A stretch of DNA of 64,000 bases from Fibrobacter succinogenes (GTDB lineage: Bacteria; Fibrobacterota; Fibrobacteria; Fibrobacterales; Fibrobacteraceae): NCBI GenBank assembly GCA_902768715.1, contig CACXMH010000008.1:1-64000 (forward strand). Direction: 5' to 3'. A program made the translations under genes and the position numbers. Numbering within the stretch: the first letter of the stretch is position 1; every line of letters begins with the position of its first letter. This document shows positions 48,873 to 58,051 of the stretch, piece after piece. The notes beneath the pieces are model-generated. The model saw only the letters and a program-made list of their open reading frames with translations, was not told the origin of the DNA and searched no databases.

Positions 48873-48893
48873 AATCACGGGAAAAGAAGCCCG

Positions 48894-48925
48894 CGACAAT
48901 TATTGTCGTCCGCTTTTTGTATATT
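48894..48925 (+). promoter_or_regulatory. WYL-regulon operator 1 and -10 box (WYL gene)
   Basis: Perfect palindrome CGACAATTATTGTCG (48894-48908); its inner half TTGTCG is followed after exactly 11 bases by TATATT (48920-48925), 20 bases before the ATG. Same geometry as the four other sites; suggests autoregulation. Confidence 0.75.
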
Positions 48926-48945
48926 GGGACAAAAATGGAGGCCCT

Positions 48946-49971
48946 ATGGCAGAACAGACCCGCGGCGAACGAATGATACGCATTTTCGCCTACCTGATGG
49001 CGCACTACAACAACCGCTACAGCGTAGCCGACATCATGAACCGCCTGGAAATACCCGAAAGCGACCTGAGGAGCGTCCAGCGCGACATGCAGGCGCTGGC
49101 AGACATCGACGGGGGCTACATCCGGCGCATCGTCGATAGCGGCAAGACCGAGTACCAGGTGGCCCTCGAACGGGCAGGCAAGCTCGTGTTCCCCGAATTC
49201 GGCGACACACTTTTGCATTTCATGTTCCTACAGCGCATCGCGAACATCTACCCGGCCATTTCAAGCCTCATCGAAAACCTTACCGGAAGGATTATGCAGG
49301 ACCTGCCCGCACGAGAACAGGCCACCCTGGCAAGTTACGCAAAGGAACTGAACGGGCGGATTCTCTTTACAGGCACGCCGCCCGACGTTGACGAGAATGT
49401 AGGCAAGAACCTGCCCGTCATCCTTGACGCCATCCGCAAAAAGCAGAAGGTTCAAATCGCCTACACCGACAACTGGGGGAACTTTTCCGACAAGCCCCGC
49501 GTACCGTTGCTGGTCGCCATCCACCAGGGAGAAATTTATGTAGGCTGCGTCTCACAAAGATTCCCCGGCAAGACATACACCCTCAAGCTTAGGCGCATCG
49601 AATCGGTAAAGCCCCTGCGCGAACAATTCGTCGAAGACCCGAAGGTAGTCGAAATCCTCCGCAGGCGCATCCGCTCGGGCACGCTGCTGTCCGGCGATCA
49701 GGACCAGCCTTGCGAAAAGGTGGTCATCTATTTTCCAAAGTACATCAAGAACATCTTGCAGGAACGGCCCTACCACCCCAGCATGAAAATCAAGGAACTG
49801 GAATGCGGAGACTTGCACGTGACAATGAATGTCGCAGTCAACGACCTGCTCAAGCAGTGGGTCATGTACTTCGGGCCGATTGCCGAGGTGCTAAAGCCAG
49901 TCAAGCTCCGTCAGATGGTGCTGGACTCCGCGAAGGAACTGGTGGGGATGTACGAACGGGGATTTACTTAA
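48946..49971 (+). CDS. WYL-domain transcriptional regulator
   Basis: 341 residues. N-terminal winged helix-turn-helix (RMIRIFAYLMAHYNNRYSVADIMNRL...LRSVQRDMQALADI), then a WYL-type Sm-like domain (ILDAIRKKQKVQIAYTDNWGNFSDKPRVPLLVAIHQGEIYVGCVS...YTLKLRRIESVKPL) and a C-terminal extension (WCX-like). WYL proteins of the BrxR/CapW type repress anti-phage genes by binding palindromes at promoters. Here a palindrome lies in its own promoter and in four promoters of the adjacent island, so it is the obvious regulator. GGAGG lies 5 bases before the ATG. Confidence 0.9.
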   Translation: MAEQTRGERMIRIFAYLMAHYNNRYSVADIMNRLEIPESDLRSVQRDMQALADIDGGYIRRIVDSGKTEYQVALERAGKLVFPEFGDTLLHFMFLQRIANIYPAISSLIENLTGRIMQDLPAREQATLASYAKELNGRILFTGTPPDVDENVGKNLPVILDAIRKKQKVQIAYTDNWGNFSDKPRVPLLVAIHQGEIYVGCVSQRFPGKTYTLKLRRIESVKPLREQFVEDPKVVEILRRRIRSGTLLSGDQDQPCEKVVIYFPKYIKNILQERPYHPSMKIKELECGDLHVTMNVAVNDLLKQWVMYFGPIAEVLKPVKLRQMVLDSAKELVGMYERGFT

Positions 49972-50282
49972 TCCTGTCGTCGCAGAATTCATGCTGGCTA
50001 CACTTTTTTCAATGCGAACTCATCCAGAGTGTATCGATCGGTTCAATAGCAGGCTCAACAAGCGCAGGGTCGTTCGCATGAATCCGGCGAACACCGACCC
50101 CACGTTTTAAATGCGCAGCAAGCTGTCCAAGCAACGGGATTGCGTCGCCATCTTGTTTCACATAAGCAACCTTAATATCGGCGGTTCCAATCCACATTTT
50201 TTGTGGACCGACATAATTTGCGATATCTCTTCGGAGTAATGTTCCCCGTTCTGGATGTTCTTGGTGAAAACGGACATCATTG
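49968..50282 (-). pseudogene. Decayed copy of the PLD-type HKD protein gene
   Basis: Read on minus, it begins MSVFTKNIQNGEHYSEEIS, like MPAFTKYIQNEEHYSEVVS of the intact gene at 55657. After a frameshift it continues WIGTADIKVAYVKQDGDAIPLLGQLAAHLKRGVGVR(R)IHA. It then jumps over the HKD region to NDPALVEPAIEPIDTLWMSSH, and ends with TGA where the intact copy has Cys, followed by KKCSQHEFCDDRIK. So it has a frameshift, an internal deletion that removes the catalytic motif, and a nonsense codon. It abuts the end of the WYL gene. Confidence 0.88.
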
Positions 50283-50306
50283 TAAATATAGATTTTCAGT
50301 CAACGC

Positions 50307-51320
50307 CTAAACTTTTTTTTGCTTTGCTCTTGGTAAATTCGCTAATGTTTCCAACTGTTCAACAATTATGCGTAGCAAAGCTTCTCTACTGTCAAGTTTC
50401 TTTCGCAACTCAGCGAGTTTACTTTCTGCAAGGCTAATTTCCGATTCAACATCACTTGCCGCAATATCTAAAAAAGATAATTTTTTAAGATACTTATTTT
50501 GCTCTTCATCAAAACCCATACTGGAACCAAATTCCTGAAAGTCCTTAAATTTTTTCAATCGTTTTATATTTACAGGAATGTCTTGCAGGAATATCTTTTT
50601 CGCTTTAAGACAATGCAACTTCTTCTTTATTTCCTCAACATCCCAGACGAGAATCTTCCGTAAACATTCAATTCGATGATCAACCCACATTCCAAGAATT
50701 TGTGCAAACGAAAGTTCCTCCACTTTCTCGCCAGTCCAAACAGGAAAACTTCTAGATTCGCCCAGCAAAGGATGACGCATTTGTGGGGCAGCATCACAGC
50801 AATTTTGCACACAAGCAATAACATCCGAAAAATCATGCGGAGGAACGCTAGCGCGCTCACCATTAAATCCATTCACAAGCAGATTAGGGAACATCGACGG
50901 CAAATAACATGGTTCTTTAAATGTGCCATTGAAATTATCGTACAAAGGTACCGCATTTTTCTCAACCCCATCCAGCATAGCCCTTCCAAAACAAGAAATT
51001 TTCACTTCAGTAAAGCGCATTGCCGCATACGAATTTCGGTCAGTTCGAGAGCCAAAATTTCCTTGACCATAAACAAGGGGATCTTTCTCCGTAAGTTGAA
51101 CCATATTGACCAAACCTTTGTAAATGCAGTCGGCATTATATGGATAAAAATGGCCCATTACATAACCAACAATTTTTGCAGATTTCACGAATTGATTCAA
51201 TTCTTTTTGGGGACGTGTTCTAAACGACCAAAGAATTTTTCTCTGCACAGAAATCAAGCCATCCCGCACATCGGGATATAATTCCATCTGTTTTACTTCG
51301 TTCTCGTTTATCATGTTCAT
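50307..51320 (-). CDS. Compact GyrA/ParC-like topoisomerase-A domain protein with Tyr-to-Phe active site
   Basis: 337 residues against more than 750 in GyrA/ParC. YPDVRDGLISVQRKILWSF, KSAKIVGYVMGHFYPYNADCIYKGLV, YGQGNFGS, SYAAMRFTE, FPNLLVNGFNGE and VPPHDFSDVI follow the GyrA winged-helix domain in order. The catalytic Tyr of AAMRYTE is Phe103 (TTT at 51012-51014), and the PHG motif is PYN. The tower domain is mostly missing; a coiled-coil segment like GyrA's (SFAQILGMWVDHRIECLRK) is followed by a Lys/Glu/Leu coiled coil, and there is no beta-pinwheel. It should bind or bend DNA but not cut it. AAGGAGG precedes the ATG; promoter has WYL operator 2. Confidence 0.88.
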   Translation of the reverse strand: MNMINENEVKQMELYPDVRDGLISVQRKILWSFRTRPQKELNQFVKSAKIVGYVMGHFYPYNADCIYKGLVNMVQLTEKDPLVYGQGNFGSRTDRNSYAAMRFTEVKISCFGRAMLDGVEKNAVPLYDNFNGTFKEPCYLPSMFPNLLVNGFNGERASVPPHDFSDVIACVQNCCDAAPQMRHPLLGESRSFPVWTGEKVEELSFAQILGMWVDHRIECLRKILVWDVEEIKKKLHCLKAKKIFLQDIPVNIKRLKKFKDFQEFGSSMGFDEEQNKYLKKLSFLDIAASDVESEISLAESKLAELRKKLDSREALLRIIVEQLETLANLPRAKQKKV

Positions 51321-51339
51321 AAAAGCCTCCTTTTTCTTG

Positions 51340-51370
51340 AAGATAGACTACACTCATGACAATAAACGTC
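51340..51370 (-). promoter_or_regulatory. WYL-regulon operator 2 and -10 box (GyrA-like gene)
   Basis: Minus strand: GACGTTTATTGTC (51358-51370), weaker palindrome; TTGTCA is followed after 11 bases by TATCTT (51340-51345). Confidence 0.7.
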
Positions 51371-51394
51371 GCCTACTAAAAGGGTTGCTTTTTT

Positions 51395-53698
51395 CTACAG
51401 CCCTAGTTTGCGACCTTGGTGTTCGTCTTTATTGGCGAGTTCTTCGAGCATGTTCTGCAAGATGAGTTCCTTCGTACGCAACTCGGCAGGCACATATTCT
51501 AGCTTGCGGCACACATTCTGAAAGTCGCTAATCGCCACATTGTCGCAGCGGCAAATCTCTTCGGGGCAATGGTTCCCGAAAAAAAATGTCCACGCTTTTG
51601 AAATCTGCTGCGAATTCATATACCCAAAAGCCAATTTCAACTGGAAACGCCTACGGACAGCCCAATCCAAGACTTTTTCATAGTTCGTCGCCGCAATGAG
51701 CATGCCGTTGAACGAATCCATCTGGCAAATGAACTCGTTCACCAACGTCACCTCCCACTGGTTACTGGTGGAATCCCGATTTTCAAAAAAGCTATCCGCT
51801 TCGTCAATAAAGAGAACAGCCTCTCTTTGCTCCGCCTCGCGGAACACCCCACGAATTCGCCGCTCGGACTCACCCACAAACATCGCCAAGATATCGCTTG
51901 GCCGCACCACCATAATCTCATGACAAAGGATGTCGCGTGCAATGTGCCTTGCAAAGGAGGTCTTCCCCGTTCCTGGCGGTCCGTAAAGGAAAATATTCAA
52001 ATTCACCTTTTTACCGCACATTTGCCTCTTTTTCCACTGTAAATCGAAGTTTTTCAGCATCGGAACGACAAAATCAGGACTTTGAATATCTCCATTGGAA
52101 ATGTTCACATAATCGGCATTGTATTTTTCATTGCCAAGACCCGACTGAACCATGGGTACGCCCAAGAGTTTGGCATGTGAAGAAGCCACTTCGCGAATGA
52201 TGCGCGAGGGTGGCATTTGGGCCGACTGCATACGCCCCGCTAACTGAACTGACAAAACAGAACTACGAGCAAGAACTGGTATTTCCTCGGATATCTGCTC
52301 GATATCATCATTACACAAGATGTTTTCTAGTTTTTGATTCTTGAGAACAGTGTGCCAAATGGCCATGCGTTCATCTTTTCCAAACGAGAAAAATTCTAGA
52401 GAATAGTCAAACCTGCTCCGCGTGCTGTTTTCTATGTCACCAATTCGATTCGTTATCCAAATAACGGGCGATTTCAGGCTTTCAAAAAAAACATTTAGCA
52501 GGCCTTTTTCAGCCTTGTTCAGAACCAGGTCCGCCTCGTCCATCAAGATGACGCCTCCACTCCGTTCGCACTCCCAGTCGGCAAGACGCAAAGAACGCAA
52601 ACGGGTCTGTAAAAGCGACTCTTCATTCTGCATTTCATCGCCAGTGCCCACCGATATCAGGGAAACGCCAAGTTCTTGAGCCAAGGCCTTGGCCATTTCG
52701 GTTTTTCCTGTTCCCTCACGGCCGTAGAAGAGAATGTTCAGCGGAGTTCCCTTTTGATGAGTTTTCAGCATTTGCAAGACAAACGGAACTTGACGGTTTG
52801 TCTTGGCTATTTGCGCATAGGAAACAGACGGTTTTGCGGCAGGACAAAAATCCATAATTCTCGAAATATCGGAAAATCCATACAGATAATCGCCGATCTC
52901 ACTTGCCAAAGTCAGTTCCCGCGGTTTAACGCGAAGAACCGCATTTCGGCAAACATCTTCCATCTGCACCAGGCTAAACTTCACAAGCGGACTCTCTTTT
53001 GAACAAAGCTCATGAAGAACTGAAGGTTCCAGCCCCGTAATTAACGAAGTTCGCCGAAAGGAGCCGCTGCCGAGAGAGTTAAAGAAGTTGGGCAACCCCG
53101 TAGTTGCCTTAACATTAAAAGCCATGTCTTGATGGTCCCGTAACCACAGGTACAAAATCAGTTCTATGGCCTCATCAGAAAGATGAAAAATTCTTTTTAA
53201 TTCAAATGTTCGGCGCAAGGAGACGTCATCCACTCCACAACCCTTGGCAATCCAGTCAGTGGCACATTCGTCCATTACCTGCAATAGCAAGTGACGTACG
53301 CGAGAATCTACAAGCCCAAAATTCGAAGAACACTTTAAAAATTTCTGCGCAAAAATAATTTCCCGACCCTTGTGAAATGCATCAAGAAGTTCCTTTTCGG
53401 TGTATTTCTTTCTATCTGTCCCTAAATAGACATAGTCCTTAAAATCAACATTGTCACGGATAGCATACACCCTATCCGCAAATTCAGCAGTACGCTCTTC
53501 GGTCATGTACTTGTTGCAAAAAAGTTCACAATCCCCGTCCGGGCAGACCCGCAGAAAACGCCGCCAGAACTCGATAATTTTCAAGTCCATAAAAGATGGA
53601 GATGAATGAACAAAATTTTCATCAACTTGCTCTCGTGCAAGTGTTTTTTCCTTATTCTGAAAATAGTTGGCGGGAGTATTACGATAATGTAACTGCAT
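51395..53698 (-). CDS. Tandem AAA+ ATPase (767 aa)
   Basis: Residues 1-300 form a helical N-domain with no motif I know. D1 has Walker A GREGTGKT (326-333), Walker B ILMDEAD (384-390), sensor-1 ITNR and Arg-finger region STRSRFD (424-430). D2 has Walker A GPPGTGKT (573-580), Walker B LFIDEAD (629-635), AATN sensor 1 and RRRF (682-685). D2 is of the Cdc48/FtsH-like type. Both ATP sites look active. It probably remodels a partner, perhaps the GyrA-like protein encoded 75 bases downstream. It has its own promoter with WYL operator 3. Confidence 0.9.
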   Translation of the reverse strand: MQLHYRNTPANYFQNKEKTLAREQVDENFVHSSPSFMDLKIIEFWRRFLRVCPDGDCELFCNKYMTEERTAEFADRVYAIRDNVDFKDYVYLGTDRKKYTEKELLDAFHKGREIIFAQKFLKCSSNFGLVDSRVRHLLLQVMDECATDWIAKGCGVDDVSLRRTFELKRIFHLSDEAIELILYLWLRDHQDMAFNVKATTGLPNFFNSLGSGSFRRTSLITGLEPSVLHELCSKESPLVKFSLVQMEDVCRNAVLRVKPRELTLASEIGDYLYGFSDISRIMDFCPAAKPSVSYAQIAKTNRQVPFVLQMLKTHQKGTPLNILFYGREGTGKTEMAKALAQELGVSLISVGTGDEMQNEESLLQTRLRSLRLADWECERSGGVILMDEADLVLNKAEKGLLNVFFESLKSPVIWITNRIGDIENSTRSRFDYSLEFFSFGKDERMAIWHTVLKNQKLENILCNDDIEQISEEIPVLARSSVLSVQLAGRMQSAQMPPSRIIREVASSHAKLLGVPMVQSGLGNEKYNADYVNISNGDIQSPDFVVPMLKNFDLQWKKRQMCGKKVNLNIFLYGPPGTGKTSFARHIARDILCHEIMVVRPSDILAMFVGESERRIRGVFREAEQREAVLFIDEADSFFENRDSTSNQWEVTLVNEFICQMDSFNGMLIAATNYEKVLDWAVRRRFQLKLAFGYMNSQQISKAWTFFFGNHCPEEICRCDNVAISDFQNVCRKLEYVPAELRTKELILQNMLEELANKDEHQGRKLGL

Positions 53699-53724
53699 AA
53701 CAGAACCTGTTTATTCTGTCTTGC

Positions 53725-53757
53725 AATATAAAATTGGCGTACGACAATAGATGTCGT
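53725..53757 (-). promoter_or_regulatory. WYL-regulon operator 3 and -10 box (AAA+ gene)
   Basis: ACGACAATAGATGTCGT (53741-53757); on minus TTGTCG is followed after 11 bases by TATATT (53725-53730), 26 bases before the ATG. Confidence 0.75.
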
Positions 53758-53777
53758 GCATGAAGTAGATTTAAAAA

Positions 53778-54902
53778 CTATTTATTTACAGATTTCACGA
53801 TTTCATTCAATTGGCGACACATACTATATAATTTTTCAGCAATTTCTTCGGGGGATGTATTTTCTCCCAACGGATCAAATTTCAGTTCCCACTTAGTATT
53901 ATCACAATTATAAGAACTTCTGCCATGTAACTTAATCAACTCACCACGATAATTTTCTAGTATCTCGGGCCATTTATAAGGTTGCCAAATTGTAATTTGA
54001 ATATTATAGCGTCCTTTAATATCAAAACCCGATTCCAATCCAATTCCCTCTTTAATTGTAATCCCTAAATCAGTATTGGCATAAATCCACCATTCATCAT
54101 TAGGCTCTTTCTTTTTTAAAAGTTCCTTAATTTCTTCTAGCCGGCTATGTTGTATCTTTTCAATTTCTTTAACAAATTCATTTCGTCTATTTATCAAAGT
54201 TTCTAGAGACGCATTGTTGTCAATAAAGAAAGCTATTTCTTCGGGAGTAAAATTAGACATACGTCCTCCTTTTCTGTCTAGAAATTGGATGAAATCCGTT
54301 AGAATTGCGAGATACTTAGCATTACAAGATGCAACATACTCTCCTAAATTCTGTTTCAATTTCGCTACAAATTCTCGATAAAAAACAACCTTATATTTAT
54401 CCTTATGCACCGAACTATGTTTCAACAATTCGTCTTCCACATCTTCGCGCATAGAAATGATAATATATAAGGCTCTTCGCTCTCCTTTTTCTCCTTCAAC
54501 ATATTTATAATAATCATCTAAAGGGTTGTCTAAGGGGGCCCACAGTTTATTTTCAATACAAACGACAAGATTTTCACTTACCAAAAGCAGGTCTATCCGT
54601 CCTTCTTTCGTATGAACTTCACATTCGGCACAGCAACTGAGAGCCGCCCCTATATCTATTTTTTCATTCGCTTTTTCGCAATACAATTCAAGAAGGCTAT
54701 TCAAGAAAAGAGTTCCCATCCCATGAGGGTTGCGAGTATTAAAGAAGAAGGACAATAGTCTTGAGCAGATTTCCTCAGTTCGTCTCCCTGGATATTCACA
54801 AATTTCTAGACAGGACGGTTCATACACGGGTTTGGGAGGGAATGTTTTAAACTTCTCAAGGATTTTCTTAAATTCTTCAATCTGTTCTTGTTCTTCTGTC
54901 AT
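53778..54902 (-). CDS. PD-(D/E)XK nuclease superfamily protein (374 aa)
   Basis: The core is RIDLLLVSENLVVCIENK: Asp104, then Glu117-x-Lys119, the D...ExK signature of the PD-(D/E)XK fold, preceded by an EEICSRLLSFFF helix with a possible fourth ligand Glu. The N-terminal half is the nuclease-like domain. The C-terminal half (from about residue 215) is a separate domain with Trp-rich strands (WWIYANTDLGITI, WQPYKWPEIL) that may recognise a substrate. I recall PDDEXK_4-type defence proteins with this layout. Its promoter (GGTATATTT) has no WYL site, so it may be controlled independently. AT-rich. Confidence 0.8.
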   Translation of the reverse strand: MTEEQEQIEEFKKILEKFKTFPPKPVYEPSCLEICEYPGRRTEEICSRLLSFFFNTRNPHGMGTLFLNSLLELYCEKANEKIDIGAALSCCAECEVHTKEGRIDLLLVSENLVVCIENKLWAPLDNPLDDYYKYVEGEKGERRALYIIISMREDVEDELLKHSSVHKDKYKVVFYREFVAKLKQNLGEYVASCNAKYLAILTDFIQFLDRKGGRMSNFTPEEIAFFIDNNASLETLINRRNEFVKEIEKIQHSRLEEIKELLKKKEPNDEWWIYANTDLGITIKEGIGLESGFDIKGRYNIQITIWQPYKWPEILENYRGELIKLHGRSSYNCDNTKWELKFDPLGENTSPEEIAEKLYSMCRQLNEIVKSVNK

Positions 54903-55078
54903 AAGCGGCCCCTTTTATCACAAATATACCCTAAATAATTTCAAAAGAGAATAGTAATTTTCTCTCATGCTCAAAATTTGAAACAACTATCGACCCAACG
55001 CCAGGAAATGTAGCCACATCTCGTTGCTTTTTTATCAATATGGCCCAAACCTACGTCAACAGGTGTCGCCGCCAAGTT

Positions 55079-55579
55079 TCACGCCCCACCGCCCCATAAA
55101 CGCAGAGGAAGTTCCTGCCATAGGTGGAGCGGGATCAACATAAAGCGAGACGATCCCGAAGAACCGTCCTTGATGTATTCTGAAACTCCATTCGGAAAAA
55201 ACCTGAGCGTCCGCTCCATATAGATCTCCGGCTGGTTCATTATCCAGGACACCGATTCCTCCTCTTCGGTCCGGAACATATTGAAAAAACGCCGAACGGT
55301 CTCCGTACTTAAGCCATGCTCCGAAAGCACGAAATCCTTATCTACAGGAGCACAATAGATGATTGTATACTGCGTGTTGCTGCTGCAGGCTTTTCTGAGT
55401 TTGCGGTACTGCGCCGAGCGGGTTATCCCCCTCCATTCATCGCCTATGATGGATTGGACCTCATCTGCCGTCTTGCAAAGCGGTCGTCCACTAAGAGCGA
55501 CAACAATCTTATCGTAAAGTTCCCCGTCCTGGGCAATGAAAAACTGCCCTTCCAATTTAATCATGTCGATAATAGCCAT
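55079..55579 (-). CDS. Hypothetical protein of the WYL regulon (167 aa)
   Basis: Not recognised. Start set at ATG 55579 (MAIIDMIKLEGQFFIAQDG), which lies 26 bases after a TATATT box; the frame upstream would run through the operator. A mixed alpha/beta cytoplasmic protein with YTIIYCAPVDKDFVL and SWIMNQPEIYMERTLRFFP segments. It has WYL operator 4 in its promoter, so it is expressed together with the AAA+ and GyrA-like genes. Confidence 0.7.
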   Translation of the reverse strand: MAIIDMIKLEGQFFIAQDGELYDKIVVALSGRPLCKTADEVQSIIGDEWRGITRSAQYRKLRKACSSNTQYTIIYCAPVDKDFVLSEHGLSTETVRRFFNMFRTEEEESVSWIMNQPEIYMERTLRFFPNGVSEYIKDGSSGSSRFMLIPLHLWQELPLRLWGGGA

Positions 55580-55604
55580 ATAAAAATCCCTGTTGACTAT
55601 CAGG

Positions 55605-55637
55605 AATATAGAATGAGCCCACGACAATTAGCGTCGT
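55605..55637 (-). promoter_or_regulatory. WYL-regulon operator 4 and -10 box (167-aa gene)
   Basis: ACGACAATTAGCGTCGT (55621-55637); on minus TTGTCG, 11 bases, TATATT (55605-55610). Confidence 0.75.
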
Positions 55638-55656
55638 TTGCCCAATCTCTGCAATT

Positions 55657-56178
55657 TTACTTAATGCGGTCGCCGCAGAATTCCTGACGTCCACAATTCT
55701 TGCAATGGGTTCCCATCCAAAGGGTATCAAACTGTTTGATGGCCGCCTCAACAAGGGCCGGCTCGTTGGTAAGGATTCCCGACTCAAAGTTCCTTCGAAG
55801 GGAACTTTTCATGCCGATGCCGGCACCGGTGAGGTTTGCAGATCCGATATAGGCGGTTTCCAAATCAAAAATCATCATCTTGAAATGTACCCGCGGGCAC
55901 ATGACCCGCTCCAAGTCCGTCGCAAGAATCTTGAAACGGTCAAAATCTTCGCGAAAGTTAGGGCCCGGTTCCTTGGCGTGTATCAGCCGCACACCTACAC
56001 CTCGTTTCAAAAGAGCGGCAAGTTGCCCCAACAAAGGAATCGCTTCGCCATCATGTTTAACATAGACGTCCTTGATATCGGCGGTTCCAATCCACAGCGT
56101 ATTACGAACTTTCGCGATACGCGAGACAACCTCGGAGTAATGCTCCTCATTCTGGATGTACTTAGTAAAGGCGGGCAT
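55657..56178 (-). CDS. PLD-family (HKD) nuclease-like protein (173 aa)
   Basis: Single HKD motif HFKMMIFD (His98, Lys100, Asp105) followed by YIGSANLTGAG, the signature of phospholipase D-type nucleases that act as dimers (Nuc, BfiI type). The N-terminal part (LWIGTADIKDVYV, LKRGVGVRLIHA) is the usual sandwich. A Cys-rich tail (HCKNCGRQEFCGDR) may bind zinc. A decayed paralogue lies at 49968. Promoter with a CTATATT box and no WYL site. Confidence 0.88.
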   Translation of the reverse strand: MPAFTKYIQNEEHYSEVVSRIAKVRNTLWIGTADIKDVYVKHDGEAIPLLGQLAALLKRGVGVRLIHAKEPGPNFREDFDRFKILATDLERVMCPRVHFKMMIFDLETAYIGSANLTGAGIGMKSSLRRNFESGILTNEPALVEAAIKQFDTLWMGTHCKNCGRQEFCGDRIK

Positions 56179-56226
56179 TAGGCAAAATATAGTTTTGCAC
56201 CATTCCAGTGCATTTTATTCGGCAAA

Positions 56227-56270
56227 ATGGACTAAAATACAGAAAATAATCCAATATAATGGACTAAAAT
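56227..56270. repeat. Direct repeat ATGGACTAAAAT, 32-base period
   Basis: Two exact copies (56227-56238, 56259-56270), each followed by a short A-rich stretch with ACA. They lie between the PLD gene's promoter and the DUF1232 stop; possibly operator sites of another regulator. Confidence 0.45.
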
Positions 56271-56284
56271 GTACAAAAAGTCAC

Positions 56285-56623
56285 TTATTTCACAATCAGC
56301 GCCACAATCGCAGCAATAAGCCCGCCGAGCAACAGCGCGACAATTACAACGGCAATGACCATAAACCATTTGGCGTATTTCAGGATTTTCACCATGGCGG
56401 AGTCCTGGTTTTTCGCGAACTGCTGCACGGCATTCATGGTTGCAGTAATGAGGAATCCGATGTCGTCAATCCAGCCCACTACGGGGATAGCATCGGGCGC
56501 CAGGTCAATGGGCGACGCCGTGTACAAAAGCGACATGATCATCAAAAAAACGGCGAGCCCCTTTTGCAATGGGGACGCACCGTTCAAATTCTTCATATCT
56601 AAAACTTCTGGTTCTTTATCCAT
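56285..56623 (-). CDS. DUF1232 (YkvA-type) membrane protein
   Basis: 112 residues. ASPIDLAPDAIPVVGWIDD is the DUF1232 signature (SPIDLIPDxIPxxGxxDD), within a hydrophobic helix pair, and a second strong membrane segment (WFMVIAVVIVALLLGGLIAAIVALIV) ends the protein. An inner-membrane protein of unknown role, common in defence and cell-envelope contexts. Promoter GGATATATTTC; no WYL operator. Confidence 0.85.
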   Translation of the reverse strand: MDKEPEVLDMKNLNGASPLQKGLAVFLMIMSLLYTASPIDLAPDAIPVVGWIDDIGFLITATMNAVQQFAKNQDSAMVKILKYAKWFMVIAVVIVALLLGGLIAAIVALIVK

Positions 56624-56724
56624 ATCTTACCCTCTCTATGAAGAGAAATATATCCTATTTTCTACATAATGGAACTAATAAAAAACAAAAAAATAGGTTA
56701 GAAAGTCATTTTTTCTTTAAGCCC

Positions 56725-57087
56725 CTACTCCTCGCTATCAACTCTGTACTCCACACCGAGCCCCCAGTAGGTGCACCTATACTTTTTATCAAAAGTGATA
56801 AACCCCAGGCTCACCGTCTCCTCGATTTCCTGGCGGTGGATGTCGATGACATTGTCAATATAGACCTTGTTTCTTTCCGTCCCCACATACTTATTGATGA
56901 AATTGATTTCGGTGCAGGGCAGGACTGATTCGTAATACTCGTTCAACCGCACAAAACCCACAACTTCTAGCGGTCTGTTGGCGACCGTATCAAGGTTCGG
57001 CGAAGTTTCTACAAGGCGTCTGCTGGTGCACCCCGCAAACATGCTTGACATGACAACGGACAAAGCTACAGCTATTATCGTTTTCAT
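56725..57087 (-). CDS. Small lipoprotein of the WYL regulon (120 aa)
   Basis: Lipoprotein signal with lipobox MFAGC, then an unrecognised beta-rich mature part (LEVVGFVRLNEYYESVL, FITFDKKYRCTYWGLGVEYR) reminiscent of TRL/Bor-type small lipoproteins. A GGAG-like sequence precedes the ATG. Its promoter carries WYL operator 5, which ties an envelope protein to the island's regulation. Confidence 0.78.
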   Translation of the reverse strand: MKTIIAVALSVVMSSMFAGCTSRRLVETSPNLDTVANRPLEVVGFVRLNEYYESVLPCTEINFINKYVGTERNKVYIDNVIDIHRQEIEETVSLGFITFDKKYRCTYWGLGVEYRVDSEE

Positions 57088-57108
57088 AGGCGATCTCCAT
57101 TTTTTACG

Positions 57109-57141
57109 AATGTAGATTCACCACACGACAATAGATGTCGT
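57109..57141 (-). promoter_or_regulatory. WYL-regulon operator 5 and -10 box (lipoprotein gene)
   Basis: ACGACAATAGATGTCGT (57125-57141), identical over 17 bases to operator 3; on minus TTGTCG, 11 bases, TACATT (57109-57114). Confidence 0.75.
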
Positions 57142-57172: not shown

Positions 57173-57730
57173 TTAGGCCACGATGTCCATCAAGTCATAG
57201 TACATGAGGCGCGTATGCGGGTCGTTGTCCTCAGCATTCATAAAGCGGAAGCCATTCTTCACGTAGAATGGCACGGCATCCAAGTAGGCATCTACAGTCA
57301 AGAACCTGCACCCAGTCTTATTCTCGATAACGAACATCCCTTTGATGTAGTCCAGCACCGTCGTCCCTATTTGTTGGCCCTTCGCTGTTTCATCAACCCC
57401 TAAGCGACACAACTTCACGGCAGGATAGCTTTTCAAACGTTTTTCGTTCGGAAACCCGCGTTTCTTGCGAAACCGATTGAACTCCACCTTATCCTTGAAA
57501 TCTGTTATAGAGACCTTATCATTCGCAAGGCTGCAATAAGCAAGAATACGACCGGAACTAGCATTCACATAAGCATAGCTAACCGAGAGCAGGTGTTTCT
57601 GAAAAGCGGAAGCACGATGAAGAATAAAATCATCTAAATCAGCATCGCCACAACTGAAATTTTCAACGGAATAGGATGGCTTCAATCTAATAAAAGCCAG
57701 ATTCAGCCGATCTATACGTGTTTGAACCAT
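57173..57730 (-). CDS. GNAT-family N-acetyltransferase, likely toxin of a toxin-antitoxin pair
   Basis: 185 residues. FSCGDADLDDFIL at the N-terminus and KLCRLGVDETAKGQQIGTTVLDYI (acetyl-CoA-binding R/Q-x-x-G-x-G/A loop form GQQIG) are typical of TacT/AtaT-type toxins, which acetylate aminoacyl-tRNA. The end FYVKNGFRFMN is also typical. It overlaps the small upstream gene by 19 bases. Because the partner is not a classic RHH protein, a normal metabolic acetyltransferase cannot be excluded. Confidence 0.82.
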   Translation of the reverse strand: MVQTRIDRLNLAFIRLKPSYSVENFSCGDADLDDFILHRASAFQKHLLSVSYAYVNASSGRILAYCSLANDKVSITDFKDKVEFNRFRKKRGFPNEKRLKSYPAVKLCRLGVDETAKGQQIGTTVLDYIKGMFVIENKTGCRFLTVDAYLDAVPFYVKNGFRFMNAEDNDPHTRLMYYDLMDIVA

Positions 57731-57930
57731 GGATCAACACCTCCGTTGGCTGCTTCTCGGACGCGCTGTTCTGCCATGCCTCGTTCGTAAGCCTTTTTCA
57801 TGAGTTCGTAATTCCGCAGGATGCGGGCACGAACTTCCGGAGGTTCCGGGTGCCGCTCTTCCATACGGGCTAAAAACCGGCGAGCATCCTCGCCGAACAA
57901 AATCGGGGTCTCTCGTATTTCGCGAGCCAT
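57712..57930 (-). CDS. Small helical protein preceding the GNAT gene, candidate antitoxin (72 aa)
   Basis: Start at ATG 57930 (MAREIRETPILFGEDARRFLARM), with AGAGG 7 bases upstream. ETPILFGEDARRFL recurs in small proteins encoded before GNAT toxins, as far as I recall. Strongly charged and helical. Its 3' end overlaps the GNAT gene. Confidence 0.72.
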   Translation of the reverse strand: MAREIRETPILFGEDARRFLARMEERHPEPPEVRARILRNYELMKKAYERGMAEQRVREAANGGVDPWFKHV

Positions 57931-58051
57931 GATTCCTCTTTTGTTATACCATATAGAAAACTGGCCTAGGGCCAGGCGGCAACCAGTCAAGTCGGTTCCA
58001 TTGTTCAAAATATACAAATTAATAAAACAAAAGGCAATAGGGCTAACATCC

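Follow-up and report, generated by a model that had tools for sequence, protein, structure and literature searches.

A fixed operator-to--10 register shared by five promoters of a WYL-encoding, defence-like island in Fibrobacter succinogenes

We analysed a 64,000-nucleotide stretch of Fibrobacter succinogenes DNA (the window; part of contig C8, 64,490 bp, of a draft genome of 2.84 Mb in 114 contigs) that carries, between dnaB and coaBC, an island encoding a WYL regulator, a GyrA-like protein, a tandem AAA+ ATPase, a PD-(D/E)XK nuclease-like protein, an unknown protein of 166 amino acids (aa), a PLD-family protein, a DUF1232 protein, a small predicted lipoprotein and a GNAT protein. Five of these genes, that of the WYL regulator among them, lie behind a palindromic operator placed exactly 11 bp from a -10 box. 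We consider it likely (probability about 0.72) that the WYL protein belongs with activators such as DriD and PafBC, acting as a homodimer that senses single-stranded DNA (ssDNA) and turns on its own gene together with the four other promoters. The original prediction, made from the window alone, had recognised these sites as a multi-promoter regulon that includes the WYL gene, which our analysis bears out, and had assigned them to an autorepressor of the BrxR/CapW type. It is on this last point that we depart from it: the position of the palindrome, the register and the missing -35 hexamer match DriD and PafBC, to which the protein is also nearest.

Five operator-promoters and their register

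A palindrome lies just 5′ of each of the five genes, as predicted, and the composite pattern GACR-N4-TTGTCR-N11-TANNTT fits all of them. The site of the WYL gene is on the forward strand at 48893-48925 (GCGACAATTATTGTCGT; -10 TATATT, 48920-48925). The remaining four are on the reverse strand, before the GyrA-like gene at 51340-51372 (GCGACGTTTATTGTCAT; TATCTT, 51340-51345), the AAA+ gene at 53725-53757 (ACGACATCTATTGTCGT; TATATT, 53725-53730), the gene of the unknown protein (166/167 aa) at 55605-55637 (ACGACGCTAATTGTCGT; TATATT, 55605-55610) and the lipoprotein gene at 57109-57141 (ACGACATCTATTGTCGT; TACATT, 57109-57114). In gene orientation the promoters read GACAATTATTGTCGTCCGCTTTTTGTATATT (WYL), GACGTTTATTGTCATGAGTGTAGTCTATCTT (GyrA-like), GACATCTATTGTCGTACGCCAATTTTATATT (AAA+), GACGCTAATTGTCGTGGGCTCATTCTATATT (166-aa protein) and GACATCTATTGTCGTGTGGTGAATCTACATT (lipoprotein), and they lie 19 to 26 bp from the start codons. 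The 17-mers themselves occupy 48893-48909, 51356-51372, 53741-53757, 55621-55637 and 57125-57141; the positions originally given for the last three were exact, and the first two, placed at 48894 and 51358, begin at 48893 and 51356. Likewise, the form ACGACA-N5-TGTCGT ascribed to every site is perfect in two, has one mismatch in two others and three mismatches at 51356-51372, the weakest site of the window. The claim of a constant spacer stands in full, with TTGTCG (TTGTCA as the proximal half of the weakest site) followed by exactly 11 bp and a -10 box in 5/5 cases, the -10 forms being those first reported; all five palindromes end 10 bp upstream of the -10. Two further hits in the window, at 51920 and 55053, are without a -10 and were taken as chance.

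Scanning the whole genome with the composite pattern gave seven perfect matches and none for the reversed control. All seven are in two WYL islands: five in the window and two on contig C6, beside a WYL paralogue and a second AAA+ gene. This second island (G000 C6:1-7000, L027) encodes a 373-aa unknown protein, a WYL paralogue 42% identical to that of the window and a tandem AAA+ paralogue 33% identical to its counterpart, all three with a separate site of the type that we call F; the third C6 site, the promoter of the WYL gene there, has the same pattern with one mismatch. Since the perfect sites outside the window lie only in the C6 WYL island, this genome is free of the many unlinked sites that would speak against a dedicated operator. 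The palindrome alone is not special as a genome-wide test, giving 65 matches with up to two mismatches versus 106 for its reversed control. Across 80 genomes of the genus, the N11 spacer yielded 235 matches against 2 for the reversed pattern and the N12 spacer 56 against 6. An N10 spacer yielded 30, but a single conserved coding sequence accounts for 20 of these, and N10 was therefore ruled out as an alternative register. Among 111 genomes of the family the composite pattern occurs commonly and its reversed control hardly at all.

To describe the register with the -10 ignored in selection, every exact CGAC-N7-GTCG palindrome was taken from 22 island loci (n=67). The sequence TANN[TC]T stands at exactly +11 on at least one side of 64 of these 67, and on 72 palindrome sides in all, against 10 for the next offset. 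Eight palindromes are flanked to left and right by a -10 at this distance and serve divergent genes; examples of a single palindrome between two such genes are L101 8883-8931, L103 2062-2110 and L110 4832-4880. The 71 promoters have TTGTCG at -29 to -24 and the -10 in common, with the remainder variable: the distal half-site is less strict than the proximal one, and flanks and spacer are unconserved. The palindrome spans the -35 region, and there is no recognisable -35 hexamer, the best match to TTGACA reaching at most 2/6 in 69 of the 71 promoters. In one subgroup of F-type WYL genes (L146, L182, L184, L189, L195) the half-site is separated from TATATT by 9 bp at the gene's own promoter. The exact register, the conservation and the near-empty reversed controls agree with the original view that this is a real operator.

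The protein that binds the sites

The WYL regulator (341 aa; 48946-49971, forward strand) comprises a winged helix-turn-helix (wHTH) at about 6-72, a three-helix bundle at 85-136, a WYL domain at 139-227 and a WCX domain at 256-339, with Pfam matches above cut-off for WCX (6.9e-10) and WYL (8.5e-5). Its AlphaFold2 (AF2) model has a mean predicted local distance difference test (pLDDT) of 77 and a predicted template modelling score (pTM) of 0.56. A Foldseek search with this model ranked DriD first (4e-15), followed by PafBC (1e-11), CapW (3e-7) and BrxR (3e-6); identity to DriD is about 17%. A profile built from 23 island WYL proteins retrieved PafC (0.0018) and DriD (0.05-0.16) from the PDB; BrxR and CapW were absent from the list at E ≤10, kinship with them still being possible, and the single sequence alone retrieved only PafC (E 1.1). 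The order wHTH, three-helix bundle, WYL and WCX is that of DriD-type activators, with the bundle at 85-136 of the model corresponding to 79-133 in DriD, where it is the part that touches polymerase. Moreover, the basic WYL residues K214 and R217 are invariant in the 23 homologues and have the spacing of the ssDNA-contacting residues R204/R207 of SiwR; the pocket of CapW/BrxR is basic too. In a scan of contigs every relative of the island WYL protein came from Fibrobacter or its family, mostly from rumen metagenome assemblies, so that comparisons of this protein cover a single phylum; a literature search for WYL regulators in Fibrobacter returned unrelated papers only.

The island WYL proteins fall into an A-type and an F-type, and base -30 of the operator follows this division. 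It is A in 84/89 sites near an A-type and T in 50/57 near an F-type gene (Fisher p 1e-31, a value that is too small because the counted sites are related by descent), and the trend has the same direction in 14/14 genomes carrying both types. This within-genome comparison left out a site of G037 C151 whose base -30 is A, and 84/89 and 50/57 are the full counts. Moreover, genomes of the genus hold 4.18 sites on average if they have a WYL homologue versus 0.87 if they do not (p 4e-9, too small for the same reason). As base -30 tracks the linked WYL subtype, the sites are very probably bound by the WYL protein linked to them, and these patterns are the best available in silico support for that assignment, in keeping with the earlier suggestion and with the lack of perfect sites outside the two WYL islands of this genome.

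Activation or repression

Placement of the sites relative to the promoter was compared with that of characterised WYL regulators. The consensus of DriD, the homodimeric WYL activator of an SOS-independent damage response in Caulobacter crescentus, is ATACGAC-N7-GTCGTAT, and its sites cover the -35, always equally far from the -10 (PMC12340889); in the three promoters printed there the half-site to -10 distance computes to N11, with a conserved G at -14. PafBC, a mycobacterial WYL heterodimer acting by sigma adaptation, uses the promoter tTGTCRgtg-8-TannnT (PMC5656591), which equals TTGTCR-N11-TANNNT, the same 11 bp with a -26 element in the same place, and is matched by the window sites. The Fibrobacter promoters thus combine the palindrome of DriD (ACGAC-N7-GTCGT over the -35) with the register of PafBC, and have no -35 hexamer. 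Unlike DriD, which controls didA, bapE, recJ and dnaG, the island protein would act on genes of a mobile defence-like island and its gene lies in its own regulon. PafBC differs in being heterodimeric, in contacting one half-site and in needing polymerase for binding, whereas both half-sites are conserved in Fibrobacter and each island has one WYL gene with no adjacent paralogous pair; by this comparison the island protein resembles PafBC in the register that it uses, yet is distinct from it. SiwR of Mycobacterium smegmatis is likewise a homodimeric WYL activator that controls neighbouring genes and has a basic WYL pair three residues apart. Its operator is a 19-bp palindrome between -35 and -10, and one operon is known for it, not a multi-promoter island. 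ssDNA is sensed by DriD, PafBC, SiwR and CapW.

We therefore favour an activator over a repressor, with reasonable confidence, from the DriD/PafBC-like geometry, the lack of a -35 hexamer and the ranking of profile and fold matches. As known ssDNA-sensing activators have the same layout, DNA damage or infection probably turns the island on, and a repressor does not merely hold it down. In a resting cell the island promoters would be weak, since a -10 is present but a -35 hexamer is not. ssDNA arising from damage or from phage or plasmid replication would be bound by the WYL domain, and the dimer would settle on the palindrome that spans the -35 region, the proximal half-site occupying -29 to -24. 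There it would hold RNA polymerase on the -10 exactly 11 bp beyond, switching on the WYL gene and the promoters of the tandem AAA+, GyrA-like, 166-aa and lipoprotein genes.

An autorepressor of the kind originally predicted would instead sit on the palindrome, block polymerase at the five promoters and come off the DNA on binding ssDNA or another ligand. BrxR and CapW are WYL regulators of defence islands with palindromic operators, sensing of ssDNA has been reported for them (PMC13373217), and BrxR half-sites are likewise 5 bp apart; here too the WYL gene is within its own regulon, the island genes are defence-like, and an operator over the -35 could block polymerase. However, in the published cases CapW palindromes overlap the -10 (PMC9122588) and BrxR of Escherichia fergusonii has its operator downstream of the -10 (PMC9122601), placements that none of the window sites shows. 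A blocking site would need no single exact register, yet one is kept in 64/67 palindromes; the promoters lack a recognisable -35, and the fold match is stronger to DriD and PafBC. Moreover, PADLOC gave single-gene matches only, so that this WYL gene is not linked to BREX, CBASS or another known defence system. We regard repression of this kind as unlikely. A different regulator, such as a core WYL protein or a LexA-like factor, might bind the sites, with the island WYL gene merely a target. Such a core WYL protein, whose nearest solved relative is DriD, is present in most family genomes tested, and related sites with N11 or N12 stand before radA and sbcD-like and recQ-like core genes even in genomes without an island WYL gene. 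Against this, base -30 tracks the linked subtype even inside single genomes, the perfect sites of this genome are confined to its two WYL islands and genomes without an island WYL homologue have few sites, which makes it very unlikely. Finally, the sites could be copies of one duplicated promoter with no regulatory meaning, and many are indeed orthologous across genomes. This is contradicted already by the controls, the reversed pattern yielding almost nothing; half-sites and -10 are conserved where flanks and spacer are not, non-homologous genes carry the sites and, at divergent pairs, the 11 bp are kept in both directions. We give it next to no credence.

Several points weigh against an ssDNA-sensing activator. 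An operator over the -35 could repress too, and since CapW is also ssDNA-sensing with a basic WYL pocket, the protein match alone leaves the sign unset. We know of no report that DriD activates its own gene. At their own promoters, some F-type WYL genes lack a palindrome or have a spacer of 9 bp in place of 11, and autoregulation may therefore differ there. The AF2 model is of moderate quality, leaving the domain arrangement uncertain, and the shared descent of sites noted above belongs here as well.

Core repair genes and the other genes of the island

Beyond the islands, related N11/N12 palindromes occur in other Fibrobacteraceae before radA (many genomes) and before sbcD-like, recQ-like and cinA-like genes in some (L111-L117, L125, L128, L130, L204, L205, L207-L209, L211, L212, L214, L217-L220); the sbcD-like, recQ-like and cinA-like labels were assigned from the N-terminal 110-150 residues together with Pfam superfamily matches. 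The radA promoter of the genome analysed here has a degenerate version with 12 bp. These sites are consistent with a damage-responsive class of operator and possibly mark a core DNA-damage regulon, and the core WYL protein may run this set. The 11-bp register common to Caulobacter, mycobacterial and Fibrobacter WYL promoters offers a simple sequence criterion by which WYL-activated genes can be sought in other genomes, and points to an unstudied DNA-damage response in Fibrobacter involving the radA, sbcD-like, cinA-like and recQ-like genes.

Where regulators have been reported to turn on immune islands in response to DNA damage (CapW/BrxR, CapH with CapP, CapK with CapS), they are repressors (PMC13373217). 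We tentatively propose, at somewhat less than even odds, that Fibrobacter has a family of mobile defence-like islands (WYL, tandem AAA+ and PLD genes with variable cargo such as Fic, PD-(D/E)XK or a GyrA-like protein without the catalytic tyrosine) switched on at several promoters together by an ssDNA-sensing WYL activator, opposite in sign to those regulators, and that one operator-to--10 register is common to WYL activators of three phyla. If true, an activator-run island would be controlled by a different logic, one that has a fail-silent state. The chromosomal position of the island is not fixed, as among the loci compared dnaB flanks it in the closest relative and in no other. On our preferred reading the island is mobile and multi-promoter, and we infer defence as its purpose. 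Judged by sequence, its genes resemble parts of defence systems; no complete system was found in it, PADLOC models matching single genes only (IetA-like, PDC-S26-like and DrmC-like).

The genes of the six island proteins described next, from the AAA+ ATPase to the PLD-family protein, are on the reverse strand. The tandem AAA+ ATPase (767 aa; 51395-53698) has IetA of IetAS as its closest defence model, with similarity in the AAA+ domain (E 1e-40). With two AAA domains and 128 bits versus a family cut-off of 510, however, it is not a full-length member, and the IetS protease was not found in the island of the window. The operator site is present in 17/17 A-type orthologues of this gene. The GyrA-like protein (337 aa; 50307-51320) corresponds to the N-terminal part of topoisomerase A (Pfam PF00521, 1.9e-49). 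In its RYTE motif the catalytic tyrosine is replaced by phenylalanine (AAMRFTE), which is kept in both relatives found (L094, L098), and HPHG is replaced by YPYN; it is possibly a decoy or a DNA-binding remnant of a topoisomerase. For the unknown 166-aa protein (55079-55579; AF2 pLDDT 82), a fold search with the model gave no solved relative; the operator site is found in 6/7 members of its family. The lipoprotein (120 aa; 56725-57087) has no relative among the compared loci.

Neither the PD-(D/E)XK nuclease-like protein (374 aa; 53778-54902), a PDC-S26 candidate, nor the PLD-family protein (173 aa; 55657-56178) has an operator site of its own in the window. Relatives of the former in two other genomes do have one, and in several genomes the PLD orthologue and the WYL gene diverge from a common palindrome. 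A fragment at 50009-50197 resembles the PLD protein with inner parts missing and may be what is left of a second copy or the trace of a rearrangement. Many A-type islands have a Fic/DOC-domain protein (L097 11561-12091) in the regulon, with the site in 9/11. Lastly, 57173-57939 encodes the GNAT protein and a small overlapping upstream partner, a layout like that of a toxin-antitoxin pair.

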